A DNA stretch of 32,253 nt from a virus: IMG/VR virus record IMGVR_UViG_3300048115_000581, positions 1 through 32,253 of that record. One strand, given 5' to 3'. Each line of letters begins with the position of its first letter. The first letter of the stretch is position 1. This document shows, piece by piece, positions 7,756 through 21,567 of this stretch. The notes beneath the pieces are model-generated. The model was not told where the DNA came from and made no database searches. It worked only from the letters and a program-made list of their open reading frames with translations. The translations under genes and the position numbers were made by a program.

Positions 7756-8124
7756 TTATAAGTCTTTCAGTTTGTTTGCTATATTCAAATCAATATTTAT
7801 ATTTTTATGTAAGTTCTCAGGTAAATAATTTAAATAAACTAAAAATGTTTTTAATGCTGGCCACAAATCTACGTCGACTTTATAAAAAATCATACGATTT
7901 GCTGCAGCAATTTGAAAAACATTGAAAATTGTAATCAAGTGGTTCAAAACAAGTCTTTCTTGAAGATTACCGGTTTCCCGATATCTTCGCAAAAGTCTTA
8001 CTACATATTTAAATTTTGCTACATCGTCATAAAAATCTTGCGGTTCTAAACACGCAGGATTCTTATAGTGTTTTGCAGCATATAATTCAAAGTTAGCATT
8101 ATTTAGTTCATCAAATAACTTCAT
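7756..8124 (-). CDS. conserved T4-like phage protein
   Basis: A 122-residue helical protein, MKLFDELNNANFELYAAKHY..., with KFKYVVRLLRRYRETGNLQE and RLVLNHLITIFNVFQIAAAN followed by LWPALKTFLVYLNYLPE. The pattern is a family I recall from many T4-like phages, always uncharacterised. No signal peptide is visible; the hydrophobic stretch is amphipathic rather than a clear membrane helix. It follows the acidic gene at 8147 after 22 bases and ends one base before the next ATG. Its 3' end contains the TATAAATA element at 7794-7801. Confidence 0.75.
   Translation of the reverse strand: MKLFDELNNANFELYAAKHYKNPACLEPQDFYDDVAKFKYVVRLLRRYRETGNLQERLVLNHLITIFNVFQIAAANRMIFYKVDVDLWPALKTFLVYLNYLPENLHKNINIDLNIANKLKDL
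7794..7801 (-). promoter_or_regulatory. T4-type late promoter (TATAAATA)
   Basis: The minus strand reads TATAAATA from 7801 to 7794, an exact copy of the T4 late -10 element. The next ATG is at 7754, giving a leader of about 33-35 bases. It lies within the 3' end of the upstream gene, as late promoters often do. Use would need a T4-like late sigma factor (gp55 type), which is not in this window. Confidence 0.55.
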
Positions 8125-8146
8125 GATAAAGTTATTTATTAAAATT

Positions 8147-9304
8147 TTATTCGGATTGCGCGGATTGTTGTCCTAAAATGTAAAGATGAAAATCAGCGGT
8201 ATCTTTCTTATAAGGGTTCTTACCTTTGCCTTTCGCTTTGTAACCTGCCTTATATGCTTTAGAACCTTCTACTTGTTTTGCAAGTTTATTATCCATAAAG
8301 ATTTTTGAAAGAATAGCATCAACATCACGCTTAGTTGCTTTAGTATTTCCGCCTAATGCAAATTTACGTGGATCGATTGCTTCTTCAATTGATTCTTCTA
8401 ATTCTAAGTCACCATATTTTTTTAAAAGTTTTTTCAAATTAGATTTGGTTGTATCCAGTGTGAAACGATACTCATCACCAAATTGAGTTTCAACATTTGT
8501 TAGTTTGGCTCTCATCTTTTTCGCATCTTGTTTAAGATAAGTCCAATCTGATTTATATCCATCAAAGAACATATCAAACTTTTCTTCTTGAAGTTTTTCT
8601 TCTTCAATTTCATCTTCATCTTCATCTTCGGCATAAAACATTTTTGTTTTTTTACCTTTTTCATCTTTAACATTGATGGCTTTAACTTTACCACCAAATT
8701 TCTTTGCAATCTGATTAGCAGGTGTTAAAGCTGGACCAACGTATTCTTTAAGATCTTCATCTTTACCTGTAGCCTCATTGGCTCGTTTAAGTAAATCGGC
8801 AATCTTTGTTAAAGTATCTCTATCCTTTTTGCTAATGCTTTTCATCTTACGATCATTAGCAATTTTTTCTAAAGACTTAGCGTATTCAGCGGTTGATTCG
8901 TCGAAATCAACTTTTGATAAGTCAAAATCGTCTATGTCAAGATCATCTTCTTTCTCTTCTACAGATTCTTCTACTTCTTCAGTTTTTTTTTCTTCGGATT
9001 TACCTAGAATTTTTTCTGCAGCGTCTTGGCTAATTTCAGTTGGATAAGTTTTACCATCGAATTCAAATTCGTCTTCACCGGCAAGTTTAGCTTTAGCTGC
9101 TGCTTTGGTAAATTCATTACCTTCTTCAACATCTTTTTCTTCAACTTGTTTTTCCGCTTCAGGGTCTTTTTTCTTATCAACTGAGTGAGCATCGATAAAG
9201 TCCTTTTCGCCTTTTGTCAATACTTCAGTTTCATTTTTCTTTTTACCTATGACCTTTTTAACAGCTTCGGCCACAGATAATGTTATTTTGTCGTTTAGTT
9301 CCAT
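8147..9304 (-). CDS. acidic, Lys/Glu-rich late protein with an RMF-like tail
   Basis: A 385-residue, highly charged protein. Residues 1 to about 130 are low-complexity Glu/Lys/Asp, with runs such as EEVEESVEEKEDDLDIDDFD. A globular middle includes GPALTPANQIAKKFGGKVKA and an acidic stretch AEDEDEDEIEEE. The C-terminus reads AYKAGYKAKGKGKNPYKKD then FHLYILGQQSA. That tail (A-x-x-x-G ... NPY ... LG) resembles the ribosome modulation factor type motif seen at the ends of some phage proteins; this is tentative. The acidic composition would suit a scaffold or internal head protein. It lies in the late block, between the capsid-targeted basic protein and conserved virion-region genes. Confidence 0.7.
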   Translation of the reverse strand: MELNDKITLSVAEAVKKVIGKKKNETEVLTKGEKDFIDAHSVDKKKDPEAEKQVEEKDVEEGNEFTKAAAKAKLAGEDEFEFDGKTYPTEISQDAAEKILGKSEEKKTEEVEESVEEKEDDLDIDDFDLSKVDFDESTAEYAKSLEKIANDRKMKSISKKDRDTLTKIADLLKRANEATGKDEDLKEYVGPALTPANQIAKKFGGKVKAINVKDEKGKKTKMFYAEDEDEDEIEEEKLQEEKFDMFFDGYKSDWTYLKQDAKKMRAKLTNVETQFGDEYRFTLDTTKSNLKKLLKKYGDLELEESIEEAIDPRKFALGGNTKATKRDVDAILSKIFMDNKLAKQVEGSKAYKAGYKAKGKGKNPYKKDTADFHLYILGQQSAQSE

Positions 9305-9315
9305 GATTGTGTTCC

Positions 9316-9687
9316 TTAATTTTGCGAGGTTGTGGCCTCTTCTTTAGATTTTTGAAGGCGTTCAGCTTCCGCTCTTTTTACCTTCGGTATTAATTTTTTT
9401 GTAAGTTTATCAACAAGTCCTTTTTTCGCTTCTACTTTTCTATCTATTTGTGCTTTAGCAGAAAATGATAGTGAATTATACTTGTTCTTTGAAAATTTTG
9501 CTCTAACCATATCAATGGCTTGTTTTCTTGCTCTTGCTTTAATTTTTTCTGGTGATGCCTTTTTCTTTGCAGCTAATTTACGTTTTAGCGCAAGTTTTGG
9601 CGCAAGTCTTTTCATAACTCTTGAACGAGCTATACGCTGTTGAGGCGTTAAAGGCTTTTCAATTAAATATTCTTTAAACGTAATCAT
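9316..9687 (-). CDS. basic late protein with a capsid-targeting-like N-terminus
   Basis: A 123-residue, very Lys/Arg/Ala-rich protein starting MITFKEYLIEKPLTPQQR. The first ten residues follow the M-x-x-F-K-x-[YF] pattern shared by several neighbours and resemble the T4 internal-protein targeting peptide (MKTYQEFIAE). LIE at 8-10 fits the L/I-x-E consensus of the gp21 prohead protease. The rest (VMKRLAPKLALKRKLAAKKK) is strongly basic and should bind DNA, as expected for a packaged internal protein. The ATG at 9687 overlaps the TGA of the upstream gene (ATGA); a frame extended to 9753 is not needed. Function inferred, not known. Confidence 0.75.
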   Translation of the reverse strand: MITFKEYLIEKPLTPQQRIARSRVMKRLAPKLALKRKLAAKKKASPEKIKARARKQAIDMVRAKFSKNKYNSLSFSAKAQIDRKVEAKKGLVDKLTKKLIPKVKRAEAERLQKSKEEATTSQN

Positions 9688-9983
9688 AATCCTTGTCCTC
9701 CCCAAAATGTCATTGCAACTCCACCTGTAATTAATGCAGTGATTGCAATCCAAAATATTTTATTTAGAATACCAACGGCACCTTCAACATCGTGCACCTT
9801 TGTTTCAACTTGTCTCATTCTATCGTCAAGATCTTGAAGCTTACGATGCTGTTCTATATTTAGTTGTTCAAGACCTGACAATTTTTCTTCTGCTCTTGCA
9901 ATAGAAACTACAGCATCGGCGAGTTTATCTATTTTCTCTTCGATGCGGTCTAGTCTCGTTGATTCCCCTTTATTCATAGTCAT
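9684..9983 (-). CDS. small coiled-coil membrane protein (XhlA-like)
   Basis: A 99-residue protein. Residues 8-70 form a heptad-rich coiled coil (LDRIEEKIDKLADAVVSIAR, LDDRMRQVETKVHDVEGAVG), followed by one C-terminal membrane helix at about 74-93 (FWIAITALITGGVAMTFWGG). This layout is that of XhlA/haemolysin-type and similar small phage membrane proteins. It could be a holin accessory or another envelope protein, but also simply an uncharacterised membrane protein. Its ATG overlaps the upstream stop as TAATG (9985-9981), and its own TGA overlaps the next ATG. Confidence 0.75.
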   Translation of the reverse strand: MTMNKGESTRLDRIEEKIDKLADAVVSIARAEEKLSGLEQLNIEQHRKLQDLDDRMRQVETKVHDVEGAVGILNKIFWIAITALITGGVAMTFWGGQGL

Positions 9984-10879
9984 TATATTTTAGATCTCTC
10001 CTGCCAATCATAAGATGTTTCATCATCTGTTATAGGTCCACCTTTTGCCCATGTATGACATGAACGTGCAGAATGGCATTTAAAATGGTGCATCCAACAA
10101 TATCCAAGTTCTCCGTCTTTGTCAGATGTTTTTCCTGGCATGCAATCTTTCATACGAGGAGATATATCAAAGGCTACACAGTTTTCACATAGTGATTTCT
10201 TTGCAGCCTCTTCTGTTGTTTTCCAATACTTAGCAATGTCTTTCCAATAACTACCTGGCTCATCAACATTCAATGGTCCGTAGTTGAATTTTTTAATTGT
10301 AGCATCGCGGTTTGTTGTATTAACTTCTAAATCTTGTGTAGCGGTTGGACATTTAGCATCTTCTTCAAGTTCTACTGATTCTTTTTTACCTTTATGCTTT
10401 GCCCATAAATCTGCATCAGCAGTTGTACGTGTTTTACCACCCGTAATAAATGAATTGACTCGTGCATAAGCCCATTGATGAGGTGTTGCACCTGGTCTGT
10501 GACCTGTTTTCCATGCGGCCATTCCACGATCAAACACTTTCTTCAAAATACCATAAGAAATACCCGATGCATCAGCTTTTTTCTTTAAACCAGCGAGTTG
10601 CTTTTCATCAAGTGTTGATTCAAATACCCCTTGACTAGAATTACATTTTTTTTCTGGGCATATACCACCATTCTTTTGCCATGCTTTTACGGTGTTTACT
10701 TCATCGCATTTTACACAAGCAATGTTATTACCGCGACGTTCGTAAATTTTATATGCTTTTTGTATTGAACTAGGAGTTGAAAAGTCTACATCTTCGTAGA
10801 TAAAGTCCTCATCAAATTCACCTAAGGCGATTTGACACTGCTTTATTAATCTTTCTTTTCTAATATCCATAGTTCCCAT
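9983..10879 (-). CDS. late protein with a DUF5824-like and a Cys-rich, HiPIP-like domain
   Basis: A 298-residue protein with three parts. The N-terminal third has CVKCDE and CPEKKC, a probable zinc knuckle pair. The middle (GISYGILKKVFDRGMAAWKT then HRPGATPHQWAYARVNSFI) is a domain I recall from T4-like marine phages (DUF5824-like, unverified). The C-terminal third has eight or so Cys: CENCVAF, MKDCMPG, LGYCWMHHFKCHSARSCHTW. That spacing resembles high-potential iron-sulphur or zinc clusters. An exact late promoter lies 14 bases upstream. Two ATGs, 10879 (MGTMDIRKE) and 10870 (MDIRKE), are possible starts; the second gives a more normal leader. It ends TAATG with the next gene. Confidence 0.75.
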   Translation of the reverse strand: MGTMDIRKERLIKQCQIALGEFDEDFIYEDVDFSTPSSIQKAYKIYERRGNNIACVKCDEVNTVKAWQKNGGICPEKKCNSSQGVFESTLDEKQLAGLKKKADASGISYGILKKVFDRGMAAWKTGHRPGATPHQWAYARVNSFITGGKTRTTADADLWAKHKGKKESVELEEDAKCPTATQDLEVNTTNRDATIKKFNYGPLNVDEPGSYWKDIAKYWKTTEEAAKKSLCENCVAFDISPRMKDCMPGKTSDKDGELGYCWMHHFKCHSARSCHTWAKGGPITDDETSYDWQERSKI

Positions 10880-10892
10880 TAAATTATAATTC

Positions 10893-10900
10893 TATTTATA
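10893..10900 (-). promoter_or_regulatory. T4-type late promoter (TATAAATA)
   Basis: The minus strand reads TATAAATA from 10900 to 10893, in the 27-base gap between two late genes, which is the expected place for a late promoter. The predicted start near 10887 leaves about 8 bases before the first ATG (10879) or 17 before the second (10870). Confidence 0.7.
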
Positions 10901-10906
10901 CGATTA

Positions 10907-12349
10907 TCATCCTCCAAATTCGTGTCCAGCAACTCTTTTCATTTGTTTTTTGAACTCTTCAAAGTCTGGTTTTTTCTTATATAGTTTGATTGAAATTTCG
11001 TCTCGATCTTTACCTTTGATACGCCATTTAAAACCTTTTTCTAAATGTTCTGGTTTAGTGGTTTTAACAACACGTCTTTTAAAACCATCTTCCCAAGGTT
11101 CACTTTTACCTTCACCCTCCTTTAAAGTAGTTCCAACAGTTTGTTTCTTACTTACTTTCTTGAACTCTAAATCTTTTACATCTACGTTATTACCTCTTGC
11201 ATAAGAACCTCTTCGAGCAAATAGACTTCGAGAGTTACTTCCTGTTGCAAGAACTTCTTTAGTCTTTTTATGAAAGACCACATAAGGTTCTTTGAGTTCT
11301 TCTAATTCTCCTGGTGTATCTTTTTTGTATTTTTTAGTTGTCTTTTTTGTACCAAATTCTAAATCTTCTTTTTCTACATACTCACCAAATTTTTTACGAT
11401 AAGCGATTGTATGTTTTGAAAGTTTTGTTTTTGCTCTTACATCTCCAGGCGCAGGTTTATATGCCCTTGGGTCGTCGTCAGCCATTTTGGCTTGTTTATT
11501 GAATTGAGCTTGGCGTTTATCTTTTGTTGATTTTGATAAACCTTTGCCGTAAGTTTTATTTAACTTTTCAACAAAATATTTGTTACCATCTTCGGCAATA
11601 ATGAAATTAGATTTTCTTTCAGCGATTATAATTTCTACGTTATTTTCTGTATATGCTTTATCGCCTTCGTTAAATATTTCACCTAAAATATATTGTTCAC
11701 GTTTTTCTGATATAGATGGAAGTTGTATGTGTTTTCTAAAGTTAGTCATTTCCTTTAAACCCATTCTTTTACGAATAAGATTAAAGAGTGTCATATCCTC
11801 GCCATAAGCCTTTGGAAGCCCTGTCGTAAATAATTTAAAGTCACCATCTACAGCAGCTTGACGCATTTTAGATGCACTCATTCCAGTTACACCTTCAGCA
11901 TCGGGATCACGTTCACCAGCAGATGCAATTTGTATTCCATCTTTAAAGTTATAATAGCCATGTCTCCCTTTAGAACCGTTATATTGATTCAAAAGTTTTT
12001 TAAATTCTTTTACTCTATCCGAACCTACTACCATTGTAATTTTAGTAAATCCTTGTTCAAATAGTATGCTTGCTATATGTAAAGCAGTTTTTGCGTTTTT
12101 ATCTTCTACTATGTTTCTTCCATGTTTAGGAAACATCTTACGCATTACTTTAATTTTTTCTTTATATTGCAATGGGTTCTTTTTAGAATCGCTCGATTGA
12201 GATGCGTATATTCGATAATCATTGCCGAACGCTAAAGAAGCAACTTTCGCTAATAGTTTACCATGACCAGTTGTTGGAGGATTAAATCTTCCAAATGTAA
12301 AGACTATGTGTCTTTCCTTTTCTTCATTAAACTGCTTAAACGATTTCAT
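10907..12349 (-). CDS. NMNAT-like nucleotidyltransferase with capsid-targeting-like N-terminus
   Basis: A 480-residue multi-part protein. Residues 1-10 (MKSFKQFNEE) match the M-x-x-F-K-x-[YF] start of its late neighbours. Residues 14-180 form an adenylyl/cytidylyltransferase-like domain: FTFGRFNPPTTGHGKLL (17-33) with the T/H-x-G-H nucleotide site, and GMSASKMRQA (156-165) matching the I-S-x-T/S-x-x-R signature. Related enzymes join NMN or FMN to AMP, so NAD synthesis is the likeliest chemistry. From about 210 a second unit starts with MTNFRKHIQLPSISEKREQY, again like a targeting peptide, suggesting fusion of two genes; the rest is Lys-rich. Starts with TAATG overlap to the upstream gene. Confidence 0.8.
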   Translation of the reverse strand: MKSFKQFNEEKERHIVFTFGRFNPPTTGHGKLLAKVASLAFGNDYRIYASQSSDSKKNPLQYKEKIKVMRKMFPKHGRNIVEDKNAKTALHIASILFEQGFTKITMVVGSDRVKEFKKLLNQYNGSKGRHGYYNFKDGIQIASAGERDPDAEGVTGMSASKMRQAAVDGDFKLFTTGLPKAYGEDMTLFNLIRKRMGLKEMTNFRKHIQLPSISEKREQYILGEIFNEGDKAYTENNVEIIIAERKSNFIIAEDGNKYFVEKLNKTYGKGLSKSTKDKRQAQFNKQAKMADDDPRAYKPAPGDVRAKTKLSKHTIAYRKKFGEYVEKEDLEFGTKKTTKKYKKDTPGELEELKEPYVVFHKKTKEVLATGSNSRSLFARRGSYARGNNVDVKDLEFKKVSKKQTVGTTLKEGEGKSEPWEDGFKRRVVKTTKPEHLEKGFKWRIKGKDRDEISIKLYKKKPDFEEFKKQMKRVAGHEFGG

Positions 12350-12723
12350 TATCTTTGTCTTTTGGCTAATGTAATTTTTCTTTTATATGCTCCACTTGCC
12401 ATTTTTGCTTCAACTTGTATGAGTGTACGAATATAAGCCTGTAAAGGTGATTCATAAGACGTACTAAAATCGTCTAATTTACCCATTTGCTTATATAAGA
12501 ATTTAAAGTCTCCTCTTTTTGCGAGTTTTTCTAAATCTTTACATTTCTTTTCAACATCTTTTTTCAATGATTCATAATCCCATTTACCAATACCTACTAC
12601 AACAATTGCAGGATTTTCAGGAGTTGCCTTTGTCTGAGGATCGTTCATATCGATGTAGCCTGAAATCTCCGTTGTTTTTCCAGCTTCACTTAATATGTTT
12701 ATTGCTCTATCTATCGTTCCCAT
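12349..12723 (-). CDS. small late protein with an LSE cleavage-like site
   Basis: A 124-residue protein, MGTIDRAINILSEAGKTTEI... . LSE at 11-13 followed by Ala-Gly fits the T4 gp21 prohead-protease consensus (L/I-x-E, then a small residue). The body (PAIVVVGIGKWDYESLKKDV, then KKCKDLEKLAKRGDFKFLYK) is mixed alpha/beta with a basic C-terminus (AYKRKITLAKRQR). I do not recognise a named family. It overlaps the end of the upstream ligase-like gene by 13 bases and the next gene by TAATG, so it belongs to the same late operon. Packaging into the head is inferred from the cleavage-like site and its company. Confidence 0.7.
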   Translation of the reverse strand: MGTIDRAINILSEAGKTTEISGYIDMNDPQTKATPENPAIVVVGIGKWDYESLKKDVEKKCKDLEKLAKRGDFKFLYKQMGKLDDFSTSYESPLQAYIRTLIQVEAKMASGAYKRKITLAKRQR

Positions 12724-13952
12724 CCTTTTATTACGTCCTTTGAAAAATTGTTCATTGAAAATTCTAATCGGTCAACCAACTTAACTGCGCCACCATTATT
12801 GTCAATAGCAACAAATCCTTCAGAACCTGTAACTTTAAATCCATTACGAGTTCTAACGAATGTGTCAATTTGTTTTACCTTATCTAATTTATTTATAATG
12901 ATTAATTTGGCATCAACGATTGCGTTCATTAAGTCAAACATCAATACGAGATTTTTACGATTATCTTTTGAAAAGAATTTAAGTAATTCATCACGCTTTT
13001 TCATTACTGCCGCTTTACCTTTTTCGCTTGAACGCTTTTCAAACTCTTTTGCAAATTTACTATCAAACCAAGACAATAAATCTTTTACGTGTTTTGTTGT
13101 ATTTGAAATACGTTCACCTTTACGTACAAGTGTATTATTAAAAGTTTCAATCTTAATTGCAAGATCAGGATTATTTTCTAATTCATATAATGTTGTTGAT
13201 TTAATTTTTTGAAATATTTTACCTGCTTTTGAAAGTTGTTCAGTTACTTCGTCAGTATCAATCTTTGTTAAAGATGCTGTACCTGACATGTCTTTATATT
13301 CTGCATCTTGGTACCAAACACTTGCTTTCTTTTTTAATCCTTTAAGGTTTACTCCAAAGGATGCTTTCATTGATGAAAAGTCTTTTCCTTTATAAGTCGT
13401 ATGCCATACAACACCTAAGTTTGCCTTTGTAATTTGTTTTGCTAAATCTGATTTTGCAGGAACAGCATAAACAATTGTATTAGGCTGAAACGTAATAAAT
13501 TTTTCACCATCAATTGTTTCGGTGTTTAAGTCACCTTTAGTAAACATAATGTCACCTTGTATAACGTCCTTAATACCTAAATCTTTAAGTTCATCAAATG
13601 CGTATTTAAGTTTAGTTGATAAGTCACCACTTGTATCTGCATCAATATCAGCGTGGCTTTTATAAACTTTAGGGTCTTTATTGAATATACCTTTTTTAGC
13701 AACAAAGAATTCACCATCACTAGGATCGATGCCAGCAAAAACCGCAGGTGCACCATCCCATTTAACTGTAACGTTTGTTGATGAACTAGTATTTCCTGCA
13801 AGCATATCTCTTAATGAACGTAATGCTAGGATTGCTTCCCTTGCTCCTTTCACACCGCCATAGATAACGCGGTCTTCGATATGTGTCATATGCACATTCT
13901 TTCCAGACTTCGCAGCTTCTAAAACTTCTATGTATGAATTAAACGATTTCAT
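12711..13952 (-). CDS. ligase-like nucleotidyltransferase with capsid-targeting-like N-terminus
   Basis: A 413-residue protein starting MKSFNSYIEVLEAAKSGKNV. A conserved HMTHIEDRVIYGG (21-33) is followed by the covalent nucleotidyltransferase signature K64-W-D66-G67 in TVKWDGAPAVFAG. Further motifs fit the order of DNA/RNA ligases and capping enzymes: EFFVAKKGIF (81-90), VIQGDIMFT (130-138) and GVVWHTTYKG (180-189). K64 would be the residue that carries AMP. The C-terminal half is helical and Lys-rich and may bind nucleic acid. A nick-sealing or RNA-repair enzyme, or a relative with another use, is plausible. The N-terminal peptide suggests that it is packaged in the head. Its ATG overlaps the cupin stop (TAATG). 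Confidence 0.75.
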   Translation of the reverse strand: MKSFNSYIEVLEAAKSGKNVHMTHIEDRVIYGGVKGAREAILALRSLRDMLAGNTSSSTNVTVKWDGAPAVFAGIDPSDGEFFVAKKGIFNKDPKVYKSHADIDADTSGDLSTKLKYAFDELKDLGIKDVIQGDIMFTKGDLNTETIDGEKFITFQPNTIVYAVPAKSDLAKQITKANLGVVWHTTYKGKDFSSMKASFGVNLKGLKKKASVWYQDAEYKDMSGTASLTKIDTDEVTEQLSKAGKIFQKIKSTTLYELENNPDLAIKIETFNNTLVRKGERISNTTKHVKDLLSWFDSKFAKEFEKRSSEKGKAAVMKKRDELLKFFSKDNRKNLVLMFDLMNAIVDAKLIIINKLDKVKQIDTFVRTRNGFKVTGSEGFVAIDNNGGAVKLVDRLEFSMNNFSKDVIKGWER

Positions 13953-14248
13953 TAAATAAACTCTTTAAATGATTTTACTTTAGGTTCTTCTATTTCTAAT
14001 ACTAAATTAGTATCACCGGCTTTATAAATTCTATGATATTCCATTTTAGGAATAGTTAAAACGTCACCCTCTTCTAATTCAATAGGGATGTTGTTGTCCA
14101 TTTGAAAAAACCAACCTGTACCTTCAAGGACAGTTACAATACGATCGGCTTTATCTCTGTGCCAAACTAATTCGTGAGAATCGGTATTTGACTCAAATAC
14201 GCGTGTTTTAAAACGTCCTTTTATTGTGTCTGTGTATGGTTTGCTCAT
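13952..14248 (-). CDS. cupin-domain protein
   Basis: A 98-residue single-domain cupin. The first cupin motif is ELVWHRDKADRIVTVLEGTG (26-45), with the G-x(5)H-x-H site reduced to WHRDKAD, and the second is LEEGDVLTIPKMEYHRI (58-74). Cupins bind a metal and a small ligand or sugar; here the reduced metal ligand set makes enzymatic activity uncertain. Its C-terminus, KVKSFKEFI, looks like the capsid-targeting-like starts of its neighbours, though at the wrong end. It begins one base after the upstream gene ends and its TAA overlaps the next ATG. Role in the virion or in host metabolism is unknown. Confidence 0.8.
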   Translation of the reverse strand: MSKPYTDTIKGRFKTRVFESNTDSHELVWHRDKADRIVTVLEGTGWFFQMDNNIPIELEEGDVLTIPKMEYHRIYKAGDTNLVLEIEEPKVKSFKEFI

Positions 14249-14249
14249 A

Positions 14250-14774
14250 TTACCAGAAAAAATTTCCGCCTCCTTTTAGACCAAGTTCGGATGCGTATCG
14301 TGGAAGATTACACGACCAATATCCTGGTTTTGTTTTATCTTTTTTAGCAGCGCAGTTGTGACGTGCTGCAAATGATTTACGAGCAGCTGGATTGTTTATC
14401 TTTGCTGATAAACCTGATGTATCGCCAAACTGAACTTTAATTACGTTACCTTTATCATTCTTAACATAAACGAAAAACTTTTTCTTACCACCTCGTTTTG
14501 GTTTGTTAAGTTCAACCTTTTTACCTTTATACTCAGCAGCTTCATCGATGAAGGGATGATCTAATGGTACTTCTTCACCTTCGTATAAACCAAATTCACC
14601 AATATCAGTTGATAGTAAATAATCATCAAACTCGGTCAATTGAACAGATTCTTTTAAACTTCTAGCATAAGAAAATAGCTTATAGTAGTTTTCAGAATGA
14701 GGACGAAAGATATTATGAGCCAATGGAATTTGGTTCTCCTTATGGAATCTTAATGCTGCTTCAAGTTTACTCAT
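14250..14774 (-). CDS. conserved phage protein with a C-terminal basic Cys/Trp domain
   Basis: A 174-residue protein with two parts. The N-terminal half, SKLEAALRFHKENQIPLAHN then IFRPHSENYYKLFSYAR, is a motif I recall at the start of virion-region proteins in T4-like marine phages. LTE and IGE sites (near 46-48 and 57-59) match the prohead-protease consensus. The second half (YKGKKVELNKPKRGGKKKFF, PAARKSFAARHNCAAKKDKT then PGYWSCNLPRYA) is a compact basic domain common in T4-like phages, of unknown function. Cys, His and Trp are conserved-looking in ARHNC and YWSCNLPRY. It shares an ATGA overlap with the upstream gene. Confidence 0.75.
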   Translation of the reverse strand: MSKLEAALRFHKENQIPLAHNIFRPHSENYYKLFSYARSLKESVQLTEFDDYLLSTDIGEFGLYEGEEVPLDHPFIDEAAEYKGKKVELNKPKRGGKKKFFVYVKNDKGNVIKVQFGDTSGLSAKINNPAARKSFAARHNCAAKKDKTKPGYWSCNLPRYASELGLKGGGNFFW

Positions 14775-15322
14775 ACTTTTTTTAATCTATTCCTAAAACG
14801 GGCTATTATGAACTGCTGATGCTCTTTACTCATTACATTTTTGTTTACAGCGTATATGATTGTGATATTAGACTTTTCGCGGATATAAGGTTGCCATTTA
14901 TATTTTGTAAAATAATTACTCCAGCTTTTAGCAAATCTCGTGTATAACTTCGATCTACCTAAATCGCCTGCACTTTTATCAGCAGAAAATTTTATCATCT
15001 CAATTTCGTTACCATAACGTTTAATATAATCTCGTGTCATTGCTTGAATAGTTGCGAATACTCTAAAAGGATTACCGCTATCCATTTTATCTTTGGTTTT
15101 AACTGTCCGCGAACCTGTGCTTCCTCTAAATACGATTTCGTGATGTTGAAAATTGTCGGGATTAGATTTACTTTCTTTTTCAAGATGAAGCTCTACATCA
15201 AATGTGATAAGAGCATTATTTTCAGTGGTAAATTCTCCTTGAGCATCTTCGCTGTCAATCCTTTTCCATTTGTACTCATAAGGTTTTGCAGTAACTTCTA
15301 ATATTGTTTCTAATATGTTCAT
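14771..15322 (-). CDS. conserved late protein of unknown function
   Basis: A 183-residue protein, MNILETILEVTAKPYEYKWK... . ILE at 7-9 could be a prohead-protease site. The middle has IEMIKFSADKSAGDLGRSKL then YTRFAKSWSNYFTKY, a pattern (F-S-A-x-K ... R-x-x-L-Y-x-R) that I recall from uncharacterised T4-like phage proteins. It is mixed alpha/beta with a basic tail (ARFRNRLKKV). It is locked into the operon by four-base ATGA overlaps on both sides (15322-15319 and 14774-14771). Function unknown; a packaged or structural role is inferred from its neighbours. Confidence 0.7.
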   Translation of the reverse strand: MNILETILEVTAKPYEYKWKRIDSEDAQGEFTTENNALITFDVELHLEKESKSNPDNFQHHEIVFRGSTGSRTVKTKDKMDSGNPFRVFATIQAMTRDYIKRYGNEIEMIKFSADKSAGDLGRSKLYTRFAKSWSNYFTKYKWQPYIREKSNITIIYAVNKNVMSKEHQQFIIARFRNRLKKV

Positions 15323-16812
15323 TTAAATAATTCTTTAAATTGTTTTGTCATACCTGCTTGAAACGAAGGAGCTGAACCAAAGTTACCTTTATACCTTAAT
15401 TGTAATTGTACAATCGGTGTTTTACCTATAACTAAAAAGTAATTTAAATTTGCTGCAGTTGCTCCAAATTCGAATGCTTGTTTAACGTTTTTATTTCTTA
15501 CAATTTTTGGTTTACCCTGTGAGAATAAATCGTCAAGTACAGTAGTCATAATATCGATATCTTTATACTCGCCTTTTTCGATCTTTGGTCCATTTTTTAA
15601 GTAACGACCAATTCCTGTTACTAATGCAAAATCAAAGTTAACTTTTTGTAAATCTTTTAATTCTGCTTTAAAAATTAATTGTGTTAATTGTTCTGCAAAT
15701 AAATCAGAGTTTTTCAAAAGTATACTATCTATTTCTTTAAAAATACTTTTAGATGAAACTAAAGATGAGTTGATAATTTTATTATCTAGTGCACTAACAA
15801 ATTGTTTCCATGGACGCTTTTTACCAGAACCTTTTAGACCTTCTATTGCCTTTTTACCTTTTAATTTAGTAAATGGTTCTAAAGATTTTTGCGCTTGTGC
15901 TGATAATTTTTTTGCATTGTTAATAATAACATTACTATAAAATTCTGCGATCTTATCTTCTAATTCATCTTTTGTTTTTCCAAACTTTGAATCAGCTTCA
16001 CTTGCAAATGCAATTAACATTGATGCGAATGATTTATTAATTAATGTTGGATCTGATTCAGAAGGAAGTTTCTTTTTCTTAAGAGAAACACCTAAAAAGT
16101 TTTTACCTTTTTTAACAATGAAGTCAGATGAGTTAAAATCTTTCATTCCATATTTTGTTCTTTGGAATTGTTTAACGTCGTTATCCCAAGCTTGTCCTGT
16201 AAGATAAACTTTATCTGCACCTAAGTATTGTTTTGGTAATGTTGATGCTGCTGAAATTGCTTGTGCAAGATTACCATAGTCCTTTTCCATACCTTTTACT
16301 TGACCATCTGTATGTCCTACAACTTTACCACCTGCAACTAATTTTTTAACATCTTCGATAATGACATCCATTTCATCAGAAGTTGTAGGAATAGTAATTT
16401 TAGGAAGAAGCATTAGCGCTGCAGTCATAAGTTCGTTAGGATCTGCATCTGATTTAAATCCTGCCTTTGGTCTATTCTTTACGTAAATAGTTTTAACATC
16501 ATTCGTTGTACTAACAAATGCAAAATCTTTTGCAGCTCTTGCAGGTTTAACTTGAACAAGTTCCCAATCTTTAGAATTTTTAATTACGTCCAATGCACCA
16601 GAAACATAAGCTGCACGCTGATTGCCTGGCATATACTGATCAACATAAACTGTTTTGCTATTTGTTTTTGTGTTAATAGCAATATCTTCTGCTTTAATAG
16701 AACCAATTGTAGAATCAATCTCTTCTAAAAAAGCAATAACATCTACTTCCAATTCATCTAATGGATCGCGTGAAGCTTCAGTTAATGCTGAATATTGTTT
16801 AAAGTTAAGCAT
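15319..16812 (-). CDS. large late protein with capsid-targeting-like start and possible nuclease motif
   Basis: A 497-residue protein starting MLNFKQYSALTEASRDPLDE. It has the shared M-x-x-F-K-x-Y start and an LTE-Ala site (10-13) that fits gp21 cleavage well. The middle contains KYGMKDFNSSDFIVKKGKNF followed by LGVSLKKKKLPSESDP. The order S-D-F-I then S-L-K resembles the D ... x-x-K core of some PD-(D/E)XK restriction-type nucleases, but this is a weak match from one sequence. A phage-conserved C-terminus (VQLQLRYKGNFGSAPSFQAG) follows. It overlaps the ATPase gene upstream by eight bases and the next gene by ATGA. A packaged DNA-acting protein is a reasonable hypothesis. Confidence 0.7.
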   Translation of the reverse strand: MLNFKQYSALTEASRDPLDELEVDVIAFLEEIDSTIGSIKAEDIAINTKTNSKTVYVDQYMPGNQRAAYVSGALDVIKNSKDWELVQVKPARAAKDFAFVSTTNDVKTIYVKNRPKAGFKSDADPNELMTAALMLLPKITIPTTSDEMDVIIEDVKKLVAGGKVVGHTDGQVKGMEKDYGNLAQAISAASTLPKQYLGADKVYLTGQAWDNDVKQFQRTKYGMKDFNSSDFIVKKGKNFLGVSLKKKKLPSESDPTLINKSFASMLIAFASEADSKFGKTKDELEDKIAEFYSNVIINNAKKLSAQAQKSLEPFTKLKGKKAIEGLKGSGKKRPWKQFVSALDNKIINSSLVSSKSIFKEIDSILLKNSDLFAEQLTQLIFKAELKDLQKVNFDFALVTGIGRYLKNGPKIEKGEYKDIDIMTTVLDDLFSQGKPKIVRNKNVKQAFEFGATAANLNYFLVIGKTPIVQLQLRYKGNFGSAPSFQAGMTKQFKELFK

Positions 16813-18355
16813 ACGTTTCGATCATTCTTGTTAAATCGCCATCTGATATATTTACTCCTGATTTAAGAGAACCTGCTTGCATGTTCAAAGCGCGGGAAAG
16901 TTTACGTAAGTTTGCAGTTTGCTTAGACTTACCTTTACGAAGTAAATCAACTGTCTTTTTACGAGTTGCTGAATCTAAATGTAAGCCACCATCTAATTTT
17001 ATTTTGTCAACGATAGTTTCCATAAAGTCATAGATTTCAACATCAGTTGGATCGATCTCAATCATAAATGCTCGAGTACGTATTGCGCCATCAGGGTCAA
17101 GTTTATCTATCTTTAAGTTAGAGATGAAAATAACTTTACCTGTAAATTCAAAGAAGCGCGGAATCTTCCCATCATCAATAAGTTCTTGCGGATCCTCGTA
17201 ATCGTCGGGTTCAACAACGTTTTTACCCATTTTATTCCATACAAGTTTCCTTACCTTTTTTGTATCAGTTGCTGCTTTAAACATGTTTCGTGATTCTTGA
17301 TCTTTTAATGCATCGTCAGAATCATCAAAGAAAACAATTTCGTTTTGATGTTTAAAGAGAAGTGAATAGATACCTGCAGCTGATGCAGTACCTGTGTTTT
17401 TAAAATATCCATTCCCATCGGAAAGTCCGATATCAGAAAGAATTTTTTCAACGGTATATGTTTTACCAATACCACCTCGACCAGCAACAAAGAGTGCATT
17501 CGATGCACCTGATACTGTCATCTTAATTAAATTTTCTAAATCGGCAAGTTGTTTTTCATACGTTAGTTTTTCTTTATCAGCTTCAATTTCTGCTAACTGA
17601 GGATTTTCTGCGTACGTTTCTTTTGAAGAACCACTTCTTATAGTACCACTCACAGCACCAATTGCTCCAAGTATATTTGACTTTTGTGAAAGAAGTTTAG
17701 TTACATCTTTCTTAGTTCCTTTCCAAATATATTGTCTACCTACCTTTTTAATAATAGCAGGATTCTGTGCTTCTATTTCGTCAAAGATTTTGATACCTAC
17801 AGACTTCCAAACTTTAAATACCTTTTGCTTATTAAATCCTGGACTTGAAATAAGACTTATCACATTGTCGTAAGCATCGTCAGGATCAACTGCTTCTGTA
17901 ATATATTTAAGATCTTCAGGGGCAAAATCTTCTTTTAACGAAATATCGCTTGGATAAGAAACAAATTTACCACTTTTCACTTTACCGCTTTTTACCATAT
18001 CAGCGACTTGAGGAAGTACTTGGACCAATGACACGTCTCTATCAAATGAGATGTGATATGTTGGTCCTTGTGTTGAACCATTCCACATATCAATCGATGT
18101 TAAGTTTTGTGAACTAGCTCCACCAACACTTTTCCAATTAAAGCGAATTGATTCAATCTTTTTACCAGGCGCATAATATCTTAAGCCGTATCCTGCACCA
18201 TTTGAGTTCTTATATTTTTCTAATCCTAAATTAGCAAACATGGACTTAATGCCTGTTTTCTTTCTTAAATATTTTAGTATAATATTGCCGGCTTTTTCTA
18301 ACGAGCCTGTAGCGAGTTCTTCTGTAAGATAATCTTTAAATTGCATAGTTCCCAT
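16805..18355 (-). CDS. AAA+ ATPase with capsid-targeting-like N-terminus
   Basis: A 516-residue protein. The N-terminus MGTMQFKDYLTEELATGS contains the F-K-x-Y peptide and LTE (11 area); ITE-Ala recurs near 152-155. The C-terminal half is an ATPase: Walker A GRGGIGKT (292-299), Walker B EIVFFDDSDD (339-348), a sensor-1-like VIFISNL and a following IRTRAFMIEI with candidate Arg finger residues. A linker (IEADKEKLTYEKQLADLENL) looks coiled-coil. AAA+ ATPases remodel proteins or move nucleic acid; a packaged one would be unusual. An exact late promoter lies 22 bases before the ATG at 18355; the second ATG at 18346 is an alternative start. It overlaps the next gene by eight bases. Confidence 0.8.
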   Translation of the reverse strand: MGTMQFKDYLTEELATGSLEKAGNIILKYLRKKTGIKSMFANLGLEKYKNSNGAGYGLRYYAPGKKIESIRFNWKSVGGASSQNLTSIDMWNGSTQGPTYHISFDRDVSLVQVLPQVADMVKSGKVKSGKFVSYPSDISLKEDFAPEDLKYITEAVDPDDAYDNVISLISSPGFNKQKVFKVWKSVGIKIFDEIEAQNPAIIKKVGRQYIWKGTKKDVTKLLSQKSNILGAIGAVSGTIRSGSSKETYAENPQLAEIEADKEKLTYEKQLADLENLIKMTVSGASNALFVAGRGGIGKTYTVEKILSDIGLSDGNGYFKNTGTASAAGIYSLLFKHQNEIVFFDDSDDALKDQESRNMFKAATDTKKVRKLVWNKMGKNVVEPDDYEDPQELIDDGKIPRFFEFTGKVIFISNLKIDKLDPDGAIRTRAFMIEIDPTDVEIYDFMETIVDKIKLDGGLHLDSATRKKTVDLLRKGKSKQTANLRKLSRALNMQAGSLKSGVNISDGDLTRMIETYA

Positions 18356-18377
18356 AGTGTTAATGATTGTTTAAATC

Positions 18378-18385
18378 TATTTATA
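18378..18385 (-). promoter_or_regulatory. T4-type late promoter (TATAAATA)
   Basis: The minus strand reads TATAAATA from 18385 to 18378, inside the 42-base gap between the metallopeptidase gene and the ATPase gene. The predicted start near 18372 leaves a leader of about 17 bases to the ATG at 18355. It marks the switch from the recombination/replication block to the late block. Confidence 0.75.
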
Positions 18386-18397
18386 ACAAAACACACT

Positions 18398-18874
18398 TTA
18401 ATAATTTGCCCAATTGCATTTTTTCCATTGACTTTGCTCGAACCATGCTATAAATAAACCCCGTTCGCGGCCATGTGCTTCAATTTCCCAAGGTTGATCG
18501 TAATACTTCATTTTTTCCCATTCTACAGTTTTACCTTTCCATTTACATAGTTTAGTCGTCCTTGCAAAATCTTTTAATTCCCCACGAGCGTATTGTTTTA
18601 CATGCACCATTTCATGAGCAATTGTTTCTAGCATATCTTGCATATTTTGCGATGAATCAATACGAACTGTAAATTCTCTAGGACGTGTGCACGTATCATC
18701 TTCCCATATACAATCACCGGCTAAACTTTCTTTACCGCGTAAATTGTTTATTAATCTTAAATTGACATATAATTTATTTTCAAGTCTAGGCATTAGGTTC
18801 AAGGCACAGAAATGTGCTATGTCACATGCTATTTCACGCTTTCTTATGCCTGAACCTGTTGCCGTAATAAACAT
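18398..18874 (-). CDS. zinc metallopeptidase, SprT-like
   Basis: A 158-residue protein with the zinc-protease motif H87-E-M-V-H91 in ETIAHEMVHVKQYARGEL. A later Glu in QPWEIEAHGRE (about 128-138) could be the third zinc ligand, as in SprT-like and related minigluzincin folds. Such phage proteins are usually annotated as SprT-like peptidases; cellular SprT/Spartan proteases cut proteins crosslinked to DNA, but phage substrates are not known. It is encoded directly after helicase gp41 (TAATG overlap at 18876-18872), which is consistent with a DNA-linked job. It is the last gene of the uvsX operon. Confidence 0.8.
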   Translation of the reverse strand: MFITATGSGIRKREIACDIAHFCALNLMPRLENKLYVNLRLINNLRGKESLAGDCIWEDDTCTRPREFTVRIDSSQNMQDMLETIAHEMVHVKQYARGELKDFARTTKLCKWKGKTVEWEKMKYYDQPWEIEAHGRERGLFIAWFEQSQWKKCNWANY

Positions 18875-20238
18875 TATATCTTGAATGCGCTAAAGTCGTT
18901 ATTGTTTGTAGGTGCGGTGTGTGTTATTTCATCGCTTGATAACGTTTGCGCCGAATCTTCTACATCATATAATCGCATTTTAGATCGATCAATACCAACT
19001 ACAAATCTTTTATCTTGTGTTGGATCGTTGTAACGATTTTTTAATTGTTTTACCATTAACTGATTCATACCTTCAAGTTGTTCAGTTGAAATAAGAGCAA
19101 CCATTAAGTCTGCAGTTGCTGGTAAACCAAATGATTCTGATGTATCAGTGAGTTCAACATCGGTATTACCAAATCCTGTACGAGTAACTTGAGTTGCAGA
19201 CCAAATAGGGAGATTGTTTTCAACTGCAAGGCCCCGTAATTCTTCAGCAATGGCTTTAATAAGTGAATAAGTATTCACTGAACCACCTAATCCTTTCATA
19301 CGTGAACTTCCGCAAATATTTAAGTAATCAATATAGACTACATCTGGTTTGAAATCTTTTTTTAACTTAAGTTCATCTAAGAGCGCTCGGAAATGTCCAA
19401 CGTGAGCTGTTGCGGTTGGATATTCCTTAACGATAAGTTTACCTCGTGTTTTGCCTTTGAGGTTATTAACTTTGGAATCAAATAATTCGCGAGGCAACGT
19501 CTCAAGTTGATCAATCGGCACGTCAAATAGATTTGCGTCGATTCTTTCGGCAATACGTTCTTCAGCCATTTCAAGTGTAATATAAAGCACGTTTTGTCCT
19601 GCAGCGAGATTGGCAGAAGCAAAGTGACACATCGCCAAACTTTTTCCAACACCTGTACCTGCAAGTATGATATTAAGAGTCTTATTTGAAACACCACCTT
19701 TGGTGATAGTGTTAAACATAGATAAGTCAAAAGGGATTTTATCTTCTTGTAGATGATAAAAATCGTATCGGTTGTTTGAGTTTTCAAAATAATCGTGGCC
19801 AACATTAGTATCAAAAGACACGCTTAATGCCTTTGATAAAATACCGGGGATAGCACCGTCAGTTAATTGTTTATCCTTTCCATCTATGATGCCAATTGAT
19901 TTTATGATTGCAAGGTACACTGCCCTTTGCTTACACCATTCCTCGGTCGAGTTCAGTAGCCATTCTCGTTCCACTTCCTCATTATTTTTCAAATCAACTA
20001 TGAGATTATGAATTTCATTACGATTAGTTTTATTTATATAATCTGACTTTTGAAATTCTACCTCAAGAGCTGCTGAAGTAGGAAGTTTATTGTATTTACT
20101 TAAGAATTGTAAAACCAATTCGTAAACTGGTTTGTGTTCATTTTCAAAATATTCAGCCTTTATGTGAGGCAAAGCTTTTCTGCAATATTCTTCATCATTA
20201 GTTATCGTCTTTAGTATCAGTGTCTGTAGATTCGTCAT
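18874..20238 (-). CDS. 41: replicative DNA helicase, T4 gp41 (DnaB family)
   Basis: A 454-residue ring helicase that unwinds the fork and works with primase. It has a short N-terminal helical domain (MTNLQTLILKTITNDEEYCR), Walker A AGTGVGKS (193-200), a catalytic Glu in YITLEMAEER, Walker B DVVYIDYLN (299-307) and WSATQVTR with the family's sensor Gln. Length fits T4 gp41 (about 475). The ATG at 20238 is preferred; the frame extends to a TTG at 20253. It overlaps the upstream 106-residue gene by 41 bases, so expression is coupled to uvsX. An in-gene TATAAATA at 20038-20031 is only the codons for Y-I-N-K. Confidence 0.93.
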   Translation of the reverse strand: MTNLQTLILKTITNDEEYCRKALPHIKAEYFENEHKPVYELVLQFLSKYNKLPTSAALEVEFQKSDYINKTNRNEIHNLIVDLKNNEEVEREWLLNSTEEWCKQRAVYLAIIKSIGIIDGKDKQLTDGAIPGILSKALSVSFDTNVGHDYFENSNNRYDFYHLQEDKIPFDLSMFNTITKGGVSNKTLNIILAGTGVGKSLAMCHFASANLAAGQNVLYITLEMAEERIAERIDANLFDVPIDQLETLPRELFDSKVNNLKGKTRGKLIVKEYPTATAHVGHFRALLDELKLKKDFKPDVVYIDYLNICGSSRMKGLGGSVNTYSLIKAIAEELRGLAVENNLPIWSATQVTRTGFGNTDVELTDTSESFGLPATADLMVALISTEQLEGMNQLMVKQLKNRYNDPTQDKRFVVGIDRSKMRLYDVEDSAQTLSSDEITHTAPTNNNDFSAFKI

Positions 20239-20518
20239 CAAATTTTTCTTCAAATAATTCTTTTAATATATCACCCAATAAGTTTCTGAAATTATAAGAT
20301 TCTTCCAAATCTTTTTCATTCAAACCTTCTGGAACGTATTCAATTTTATAATCAAACTTTAAAACAGCTTGAAGTTCTTCTTCATCTTCGGTGATGTTGA
20401 CTTTACCATAAGTATATATTACGTCTTTGTATTCACCTTTAAGAAGTTTTACCCCGTACAATTCGCTGTCCGAATGTTCAACGAATTGTACCATTTCATC
20501 TAAGTTTAAACGTCCCAT
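20198..20518 (-). CDS. conserved small acidic protein between uvsX and gene 41
   Basis: A 106-residue acidic protein, MGRLNLDEMVQFVEHSDSEL... . Its core VKLLKGEYKDVIYTYGKVNI, then LQAVLKFDYKIEYVPEG, is beta-rich, and the tail (EEKFDDESTDTDTKDDN) is very acidic. A small protein at this spot is common in T4-like phages; it is not obviously T4 gp40. Its ATG overlaps the uvsX stop (TAATG) and its 3' end overlaps gene 41, so it is made together with the recombinase and helicase. A helper of either is plausible but unproven. The acidic tail lies where helicase translation starts. Confidence 0.8.
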   Translation of the reverse strand: MGRLNLDEMVQFVEHSDSELYGVKLLKGEYKDVIYTYGKVNITEDEEELQAVLKFDYKIEYVPEGLNEKDLEESYNFRNLLGDILKELFEEKFDDESTDTDTKDDN

Positions 20519-21567
20519 TATTCTACTTCCTCCTGTGGTTCTTCACTAAGAATTGATTTATAAGCAACTTTATAACGTTGTTCAATGTGTTGTGCAAAAT
20601 CAGTTTTTTCGAATATATTATCCCAAAATTCTTTTTTCAACGTATCTTTCATGCGTACATTGCCTGTAAGCTCTTCACCTGTTTCAGGATTTTTCGCTTG
20701 ATACCAACCATTCTTTGGTTTGATAACGTATCCTGTTTCAAGTGCAACTTCTGTAAGACCTGACCATTTTTCGATACCGCCTTCCCAAGAAACTGAGATT
20801 GGAATTTTTGATTTTTCTTTAACGAATCTTGACTTTTCAACGTTAACTACAAAGTCGTATCCTACAACTTCTGTGCCAACTTTGTCTTGACGACGGCCAA
20901 TAATCCATACATTATCTGCTGAGTACATTACACCTGTACCACCTGAAACAACTGCTTTTGGAAACATTCCTTGTTCCATGTAAGTGTGATTGATTGCTAG
21001 CAATGGTACATCCTTAAGCGTAAGCATAGGAGTAATCATACGGAACAATCCTTTAAGCGCTTTAGCACGAGTCATATCAGCAACCGACTTTTCATTCATT
21101 GCATCTTCAACTTCCTTCTTTGAGGCAATATTACCAACTGAGTCAATCACAACAATTACTCTATCTTTACGATCGATTTCATTAAGTTGATTGACTAAAT
21201 CAAATTTTAATTCTTCAATATTTGTTACTGGTGTATGAAGAACACGATTTGTATCTACATCAAATGCTTCGAAATAAGATTGCGGTGAACCAAATTCTGA
21301 ATCATAAAAAAGCAATACAGCATCATCATGTTTTTTCAAATAAGCACTTGCCATAAGTAACGCAAATGAAGTTTTGAAATGTTTACTTGGACCTGCTAAA
21401 ACCGTAAGACCTGAAGCAAGTCCACCATCGATTGAACCAGAAAGCGCAACGTTTACCATTGGCACTGGTGTTGTGGTGAGTTCTTTTTCACCGAATAATT
21501 TCGAATCAGATAGTACATCTGCACCTGTGACTCGACTTGATTTTTTAAGTTTTTCTAATAGTGACAT
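20518..21567 (-). CDS. uvsX: UvsX, RecA-like strand-exchange recombinase
   Basis: A 349-residue RecA-family protein that coats single-stranded DNA and drives strand exchange, needed in T4 for recombination-dependent replication and repair. Walker A is GPSKHFKTS (59-67), the form typical of UvsX rather than host RecA. A catalytic Glu lies in FYDSEFG (88-94), Walker B is VIVVIDS (137-143), and a loop region follows (VSGGTGVMYSADNVWIIGRR). The acidic tail SEEPQEEVE matches UvsX/RecA C-termini. It has its own early-type promoter at 21592-21621 and a GGA-type ribosome site (AAAGGAAAACT) before the ATG. It leads an operon with gene 41 and the SprT-like peptidase. Confidence 0.95.
   Translation of the reverse strand: MSLLEKLKKSSRVTGADVLSDSKLFGEKELTTTPVPMVNVALSGSIDGGLASGLTVLAGPSKHFKTSFALLMASAYLKKHDDAVLLFYDSEFGSPQSYFEAFDVDTNRVLHTPVTNIEELKFDLVNQLNEIDRKDRVIVVIDSVGNIASKKEVEDAMNEKSVADMTRAKALKGLFRMITPMLTLKDVPLLAINHTYMEQGMFPKAVVSGGTGVMYSADNVWIIGRRQDKVGTEVVGYDFVVNVEKSRFVKEKSKIPISVSWEGGIEKWSGLTEVALETGYVIKPKNGWYQAKNPETGEELTGNVRMKDTLKKEFWDNIFEKTDFAQHIEQRYKVAYKSILSEEPQEEVE

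Follow-up and report, generated by a model that had tools for sequence, protein, structure and literature searches.

An AAA+ ATPase of T4-like aquatic phages that is probably made late, targeted to the head and processed there

The 32,253 nt of virus DNA analysed here (the whole of record IMGVR_UViG_3300048115_000581, in the following called the window) come from a T4-like, aquatic phage and encode an AAA+ ATPase which is, with good probability, a head-targeted precursor made late in infection, packaged and processed. Loading into the capsid, trimming there and delivery to the next host cell probably make up its life cycle. The single steps, judged from sequence, differ in strength: it is very likely that the protein is packaged in the head, and a cut after residue E12 is expected just as firmly; a cut in the linker is likely, and ejection of the ATPase together with the genome is the somewhat favoured outcome. 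Late expression, a targeting-like start, conserved candidate protease sites, a gp21 gene in long relatives, the scarcity of further sites and a location in a genome block with cyanophage counterparts that occur in virions together point to such a packaged and processed protein.

A preliminary description of this DNA had placed an open reading frame at 16805-18355 without naming its strand. These borders proved exact; the gene starts with ATG, encodes 516 aa and lies on the minus strand, as do almost all other genes on this 32-kb piece of virus DNA. The features are as follows.

16805..18355, minus strand: whole precursor, 516 aa, 57 kDa
18378..18385, minus strand: TATAAATA, T4-type late promoter, 22 nt upstream of the start codon; 77 of 78 homologues have it
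18320..18355, minus strand: propeptide of residues 1-12, MGTMQFKDYLTE, resembling a capsid-targeting sequence, with a cut predicted behind E12
17930..18319, minus strand: N-domain, residues 13-142, 14.3 kDa, pI 9.8, alpha+beta, model pLDDT 81
17894..17929, minus strand: residues 143-154, acidic variable linker between the predicted cuts after E142 and E154
17624..17893, minus strand: middle region, residues 155-244, mostly helical in the model
16808..17623, minus strand: AAA+ core of the NrdC.10 family, residues 245-516, matched by phrog_1250 and T4 NrdC.10
17459..17482, minus strand: Walker A GRGGIGKT, residues 292-299, key residues invariant (34 homologues)
17321..17338, minus strand: Walker B IVFFDD, residues 340-345, key residues invariant (34 homologues)
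17117..17119, minus strand: sensor-1 Asn N413, invariant
17072..17080, minus strand: Arg-finger candidates R426 and R428, invariant
16892..16906, minus strand: sensor-2 candidates R484 and R488, invariant
15319..16812, minus strand: next gene, phrog_3060, 8-nt overlap with the ATPase gene, tag-like start MLNFKQYSALTEA
12711..13952, minus strand: DUF6267 protein, tag-like start MKSFNSYIEVLEAA, syntenic in Kyanoviridae
10907..12349, minus strand: cytidyltransferase-like protein, tag-like start MKSFKQFNEEKE; such cyanophage proteins occur in virions

The exact late promoter that had been noted before the ATPase gene is indeed present. Counted over the whole window, TATAAATA is about as frequent as expected by chance (6 found, 4.3 expected), therefore the promoter assignment rests on the homologues and on the position near gene starts. 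The element is found at most 60 nt upstream in 77 of 78 homologous genes. In the 174-kb relative G001 it lies near the starts of 34 of 253 genes, compared to 2.4 at random positions, and in a second long relative, G002, near 21 of 176 (1.4 at random positions). Thus, the ATPase gene has the late promoter that is characteristic of genes for T4-type internal head proteins. Two tandem copies of TATAAATA occur upstream of the gene in L042 and other freshwater homologues; the nearer one, about 6 nt before the ATG, would yield a nearly leaderless late mRNA.

A full ATPase core had been described, and all of its elements could be located: Walker A, Walker B, N413, R426/R428 and R484/R488, with the key residues invariant in 34 homologues. 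The AAA+ motifs thus stand; what had been missed is membership in the NrdC.10 family. In a profile search phrog_1250, the family of T4 NrdC.10, matches residues 245-419 (E 6.4e-27), and T4 NrdC.10 itself matches the core with a phmmer E value of 5e-15. It shares with our protein the Walker, sensor and Arg motifs, but it is a stand-alone 325-aa protein from the nrdC region, whereas here a 516-aa fusion to a tag, an N-domain and a predicted cleavable linker stands behind a late promoter. By its size and fusion the protein thus departs from the stand-alone form of about 325 aa seen in T4. Relatives of the core were found in 1202 phage records, none of which reached 80% coverage of the 516-aa protein. 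As a stand-alone protein of about 325-355 aa the core occurs in T4, KVP40, Vibrio phages D479 and VAP7, Xanthomonas phage X1 and Bacteroides phage DAC19, and most of the sampled stand-alone members have no tag-like start. The related ATPase of T4 lies outside the head-gene set; in the lineage studied here it appears to have moved into the virion. The predicted structure of the core has pLDDT values mostly of 40-70, and structural comparison of this poorly modelled part gave Z scores of about 7.3 for Clp (D1), 6.5 for DnaA/ORC and 6 for NorQ, a range of 6-7.3 in which no AAA+ clade stands out clearly. The earlier statement that the ATPase is not the terminase is supported by the lack of any terminase-family match and by a separate gp17 terminase in the relatives. 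A terminase, baseplate or tail ATPase can be dismissed: no such profile matched, and the core is an AAA+ domain of T4 NrdC.10 type. In G002 three separate ORFs (130804-134720) match gp17, perhaps an interrupted gene.

The gp21 protease of T4 cleaves after L/I-x-E, and the IP proteins of T4 carry N-terminal targeting propeptides of 10-19 residues (PMC9026906). The preliminary description had pointed to an LTE within a targeting-like start and to a second site near residue 154. Both were recovered, with L or I at position -2 in 34 of 34 sequences: MGTMQFKDYLTE↓ELATGS at E12 and KYITE↓AVD at E154 (arrows mark predicted cuts). A third (L/I)xE site, overlooked there, ends at E142 and reads SLKE↓D here; homologues have PLYE↓G or PLNE↓S. 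As in T4-type internal head proteins, the short targeting-like start (FKDYLTE) ends in (L/I)xE. The residue after E12 is E in our protein rather than A, G or S; A is found in 14 of 34 homologues, and a comparable candidate, LLTE↓E, exists in gp21 of S-CREM2.

Conservation of these sites is striking when set against their surroundings. [LI]x precedes E12, E142 and E154 in each of the 34 aligned sequences and none of the other 11 conserved glutamates, and mean column identity is 0.31 around E154 and 0.42 around E142, compared to 0.58-0.90 at the other conserved glutamates. The linker carries indels and is highly variable, yet the sites at E142 and E154 persist. [LI]xE[AGSN] is present in the linker of all 42 representatives but only in 0.4% of 20-residue windows of the rest of the protein. 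Three homologues (L034, L036 and L037) have an unrelated leader of about 80-90 aa in place of the tag and keep LNE↓S or LNE↓A directly before the N-domain. Such conservation of E12, E142 and E154, the latter two amid variable sequence, is not expected by chance and fits the pattern that one would predict for conserved protease sites.

Outside the three sites, [LI]xE is depleted in the fusion family to 0.25-0.34 of expectation, with 28 instances in the core where 83.5 were expected and 4 in the N-domain where 16 were expected. For the stricter [LI]xE[AGS] the numbers are 3 versus 19.4 and 0 versus 3.9, respectively. Stand-alone NrdC.10-like proteins without tag give a ratio of 0.94 for [LI]xE. 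The depletion is absent from the other tagged proteins of G001, which excludes it as a general trait of tagged proteins. Since it was furthermore measured on related sequences, we regard it as supportive but not as proof.

Neither head genes nor a prohead protease gene of its own were found in the window, which is a fragment. The two longest relatives, G001 and G002, encode gp20, gp21 (S77, E 2e-44 and 1e-42), gp22 and gp23, so that in these two phages an S77 prohead protease accompanies the ATPase; the gp21 gene of G001 lies at 98270-98914. Candidate sites in their gp21 and gp23 read YISE↓A, YLSE↓A, LAE↓A, YLAE↓G and FLSE↓A.

The N-domain is less easily placed. The model of residues 1-143 has a pLDDT of 81, and its best solved match, a weak one, is P1 DarA residues 70-204 (Z 6.2, 3.6 A over 100 residues), with CapZ tying at 5.9. 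A Foldseek search with this model gave no significant match. In P1, a head protease removes the propeptide of DarA, an antirestriction protein, and the part behind the propeptide, the DarA_N domain, binds the inner capsid surface (PMC12810830). Our N-domain likewise lies right behind a predicted propeptide cut and its predicted fold is weakly similar, but it lacks a profile or sequence match to DarA_N, and P1 DarA is not an AAA+ ATPase. Kinship at the sequence level is unsupported: DarA_N (PF18788) was not hit in a Pfam search that allowed E values up to 10, hhalign gave no match, and pairwise scores were about those of shuffled sequences. The modelled resemblance to the capsid-binding domain of DarA is therefore weak and serves as a lead only. 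Phages, plasmids, Pfam and PHROGs gave no useful match to the N-domain; phrog_27157 was hit at 5.5e-4 by 2 of 43 members only. Among predicted viral structures, a 494-aa 'ATPase' of Phage sp. ctL4h4 came closest (probability 1.00, E 1.9e-3), hence the pairing of N-domain and ATPase may be wider still.

The genomic context was also informative. Neighbours of the ATPase gene in the window are UvsX, a gp41-type helicase, a DUF6267 protein, a cytidyltransferase-like protein and ribonucleotide reductase; a family-B DNA polymerase and NrdB were recognised by inspection. The order UvsX, helicase, a block with DUF6267 and cytidyltransferase, nrdB, nrdA is the same in Kyanoviridae such as S-CRM01 and S-SZBM1, where the two block genes lie between helicase and nrdAB as in the window; Melnitz and C48C1 match the gene order in part. 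T4 NrdC.11 was considered as a relative of the next gene (15319..16812) and discarded for lack of a match. Directly upstream of the ATPase gene, at 18398-18874, lies the gene of a putative metallopeptidase with the motif HEMVHVKQ and a weak match to DUF6782. At 14307-14611 the nucleotide sequence is 72-75% identical to that of Flavobacterium phage immuto, which hints at gene exchange and at the group to which the host belongs. No Rfam family matched at 8000-20600.

Around the ATPase gene of G001 (40230-52479) several genes for different proteins have tag-like starts. A GIY-YIG homing endonuclease-like ORF in this genome (50223-50924, plus strand) overlaps the 3' end of the ATPase gene (50881-52479, minus strand), whose product extends 22 aa beyond its closest relatives at the C-terminus.

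The published virion proteome of Synechococcus phage S-CREM2 (PMC10665884) was compared with a strict tag motif, [FY]xx[FYWLIM][LIVM]xE within the first 16 residues, which was fixed before the S-CREM2 sequence was fetched. After removal of the genes listed as structural, 194 remained. Three of these carry the motif, a SAM hydrolase (MKDFDSFLEE), an APH-like kinase (MKRFDAFLTEE) and a cytidylyltransferase (MKNFSSFLTEA). Each of the three appears in the virion list, compared to 25 of the 191 without motif (Fisher p 0.0027; 0.0007 outside structural regions); since the motif occurs in few proteins, this test rests on three. A looser CTS pattern performed more weakly on the same list (p 0.06 and 0.012), and the 25 virion proteins lacking the strict motif weigh against the packaging reading. 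The Cas9-like nuclease gp12 of S-CREM2 (OR473000, 7704-10313), reported in virions, has RFASFMAEAA at about residues 18-27, just beyond the tested range. According to the available data for S-SZBM1, the only motif gene of the syntenic block, a cytidylyltransferase, was detected in virions; its DUF6267 protein has no tag and is not among the virion-detected proteins given there. A cytidylyltransferase is also contained in S-SM1 virions (PMC3037559).

The authors of the S-CREM2 and S-SCSM1 studies warned that such virion enzymes might be contaminants, and cyanophage proteome authors were unable to separate true cargo (NMNAT-like enzyme, kinase) from highly expressed contaminants. The tag, as a sequence criterion, speaks for real cargo. 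Virion-associated enzymes of Kyanoviridae (cytidylyltransferase/NMNAT-like, APH-like kinase, SAM hydrolase) have tag-like starts as in our case. Differently from here, the available portions of these papers report no ATPase of this kind, and they give the presence of the enzymes in virions without a stated link to an N-terminal targeting motif.

The fusion is not confined to one phage. Among viral_contigs we found 139 relatives, of which 80 were kept, nearly all full length and with identities down to 54%; another query retrieved more distant ones, and 222 ORF fragments, a redundant set, contain all three regions. A scan of genome_contigs found no relatives. A version of 439 aa, with the tag-like start MKIKKYQAFYEA, N-domain and core, is encoded by the phage genome LR756502 (642 kb); its N-domain scores 37 bits against the family profile (hhalign probability 97%); a scan of viral_contigs for relatives of this huge-phage protein found none. 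In the first 320 kb of LR756502.1 (L253-L268), starts of the MKHLKxYKIFES type are found on 28 of 466 called ORFs, compared to 2.3 in internal windows, and are possibly the targeting code of this huge phage. An S77-like protease ORF of 699 aa lies at 225272-227371 of the same genome; it contains about 12 repeats of YSEYIAENLDKN which resemble the tag core. Tag-like starts also occur on NrdC.10-like ATPases without N-domain (L334, L335, L337, L332 and L329; MKILDFESFINEA, MKLLDFNDFVNEA, GFKDFLVTEA, LNFKTFQEA), and the tag may have joined such ATPases more than once.

We propose the following course of events. The ATPase gene would be transcribed by T4-type late transcription, and the first approximately 12 residues of the product (FKDYLTE) would act as a capsid-targeting sequence that brings it to the prohead scaffold core. 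Once the prohead is complete, a gp21-type protease would cut after E12, E142 and E154, removing the tag and the acidic linker and leaving a basic N-domain of 14 kDa and a 40-kDa piece that contains the ATPase. These would remain in the head beside the DNA until at least the ATPase is ejected along with the genome and goes to work as the next infection begins. The nearest parallels are IPI-IPIII and Alt of T4, head proteins that are CTS-targeted, processed by gp21 and ejected, and that share the late gene and, at the N-terminus, a short targeting-like sequence with (L/I)xE at its end (PMC9026906). Here, however, the cargo would be an AAA+ ATPase with two extra conserved candidate sites inside the chain. 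Its working mode would be that of a T4 internal head protein; the ATPase as cargo and the doubly cut linker would be new, and for neither did we find a description in the literature.

Other explanations have to be weighed against this one. The ATPase could work only in head assembly, for instance by remodelling the scaffold, the protease or the portal, be trimmed in the prohead and be inactive in the next cell. The late promoter and the protease sites would fit this equally well. However, stand-alone relatives lie amid non-head genes in T4, KVP40 and others, which argues against the core as a general assembly factor, and tag and cassette are common to unrelated enzymes; we consider such a role unlikely. 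Still a little less likely is a packaged protein that loses the 12-residue tag only, the linker motifs being structural and the N-domain anchoring the ATPase to capsid or DNA. The basic nature of this domain (pI 9.8) and its weak likeness to the capsid-binding part of P1 DarA agree with such an anchor, but two LxE sites, 5-13 residues apart, which persist in a variable, indel-bearing linker are more in keeping with cleavage than with a folded structure.

An ordinary late intracellular ATPase, in which the LTE and ITE-A motifs arose by chance, could be imagined from the wide distribution of the core family without tag, seen in 1202 phage records and in the untagged majority of sampled stand-alone members. 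The conservation and placement of the three sites, the site depletion, the clustering of tagged starts and the S-CREM2 test all argue against it and make it very improbable.

Going beyond the packaged and processed ATPase itself, one may tentatively picture a capsid-targeting code on a swappable enzyme cassette in marine and freshwater T4-like phages. The member described here would then be an injected AAA+ machine, its precursor split by the prohead protease so that a DarA-like domain stays bound to capsid or DNA and the ATPase is set free to remodel a host complex before phage gene expression, and the same design might possibly exist in the 642-kb huge phage. We give this wider picture less than an even chance.

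If the packaged and processed ATPase is real, NrdC.10, a widespread ATPase of the T4 family, would obtain a place and a time of action, the virion and the very beginning of infection. The three invariant sites allow a precise prediction for mass spectrometry, and the tag motif is a possible rule for which enzymes Kyanoviridae pack.
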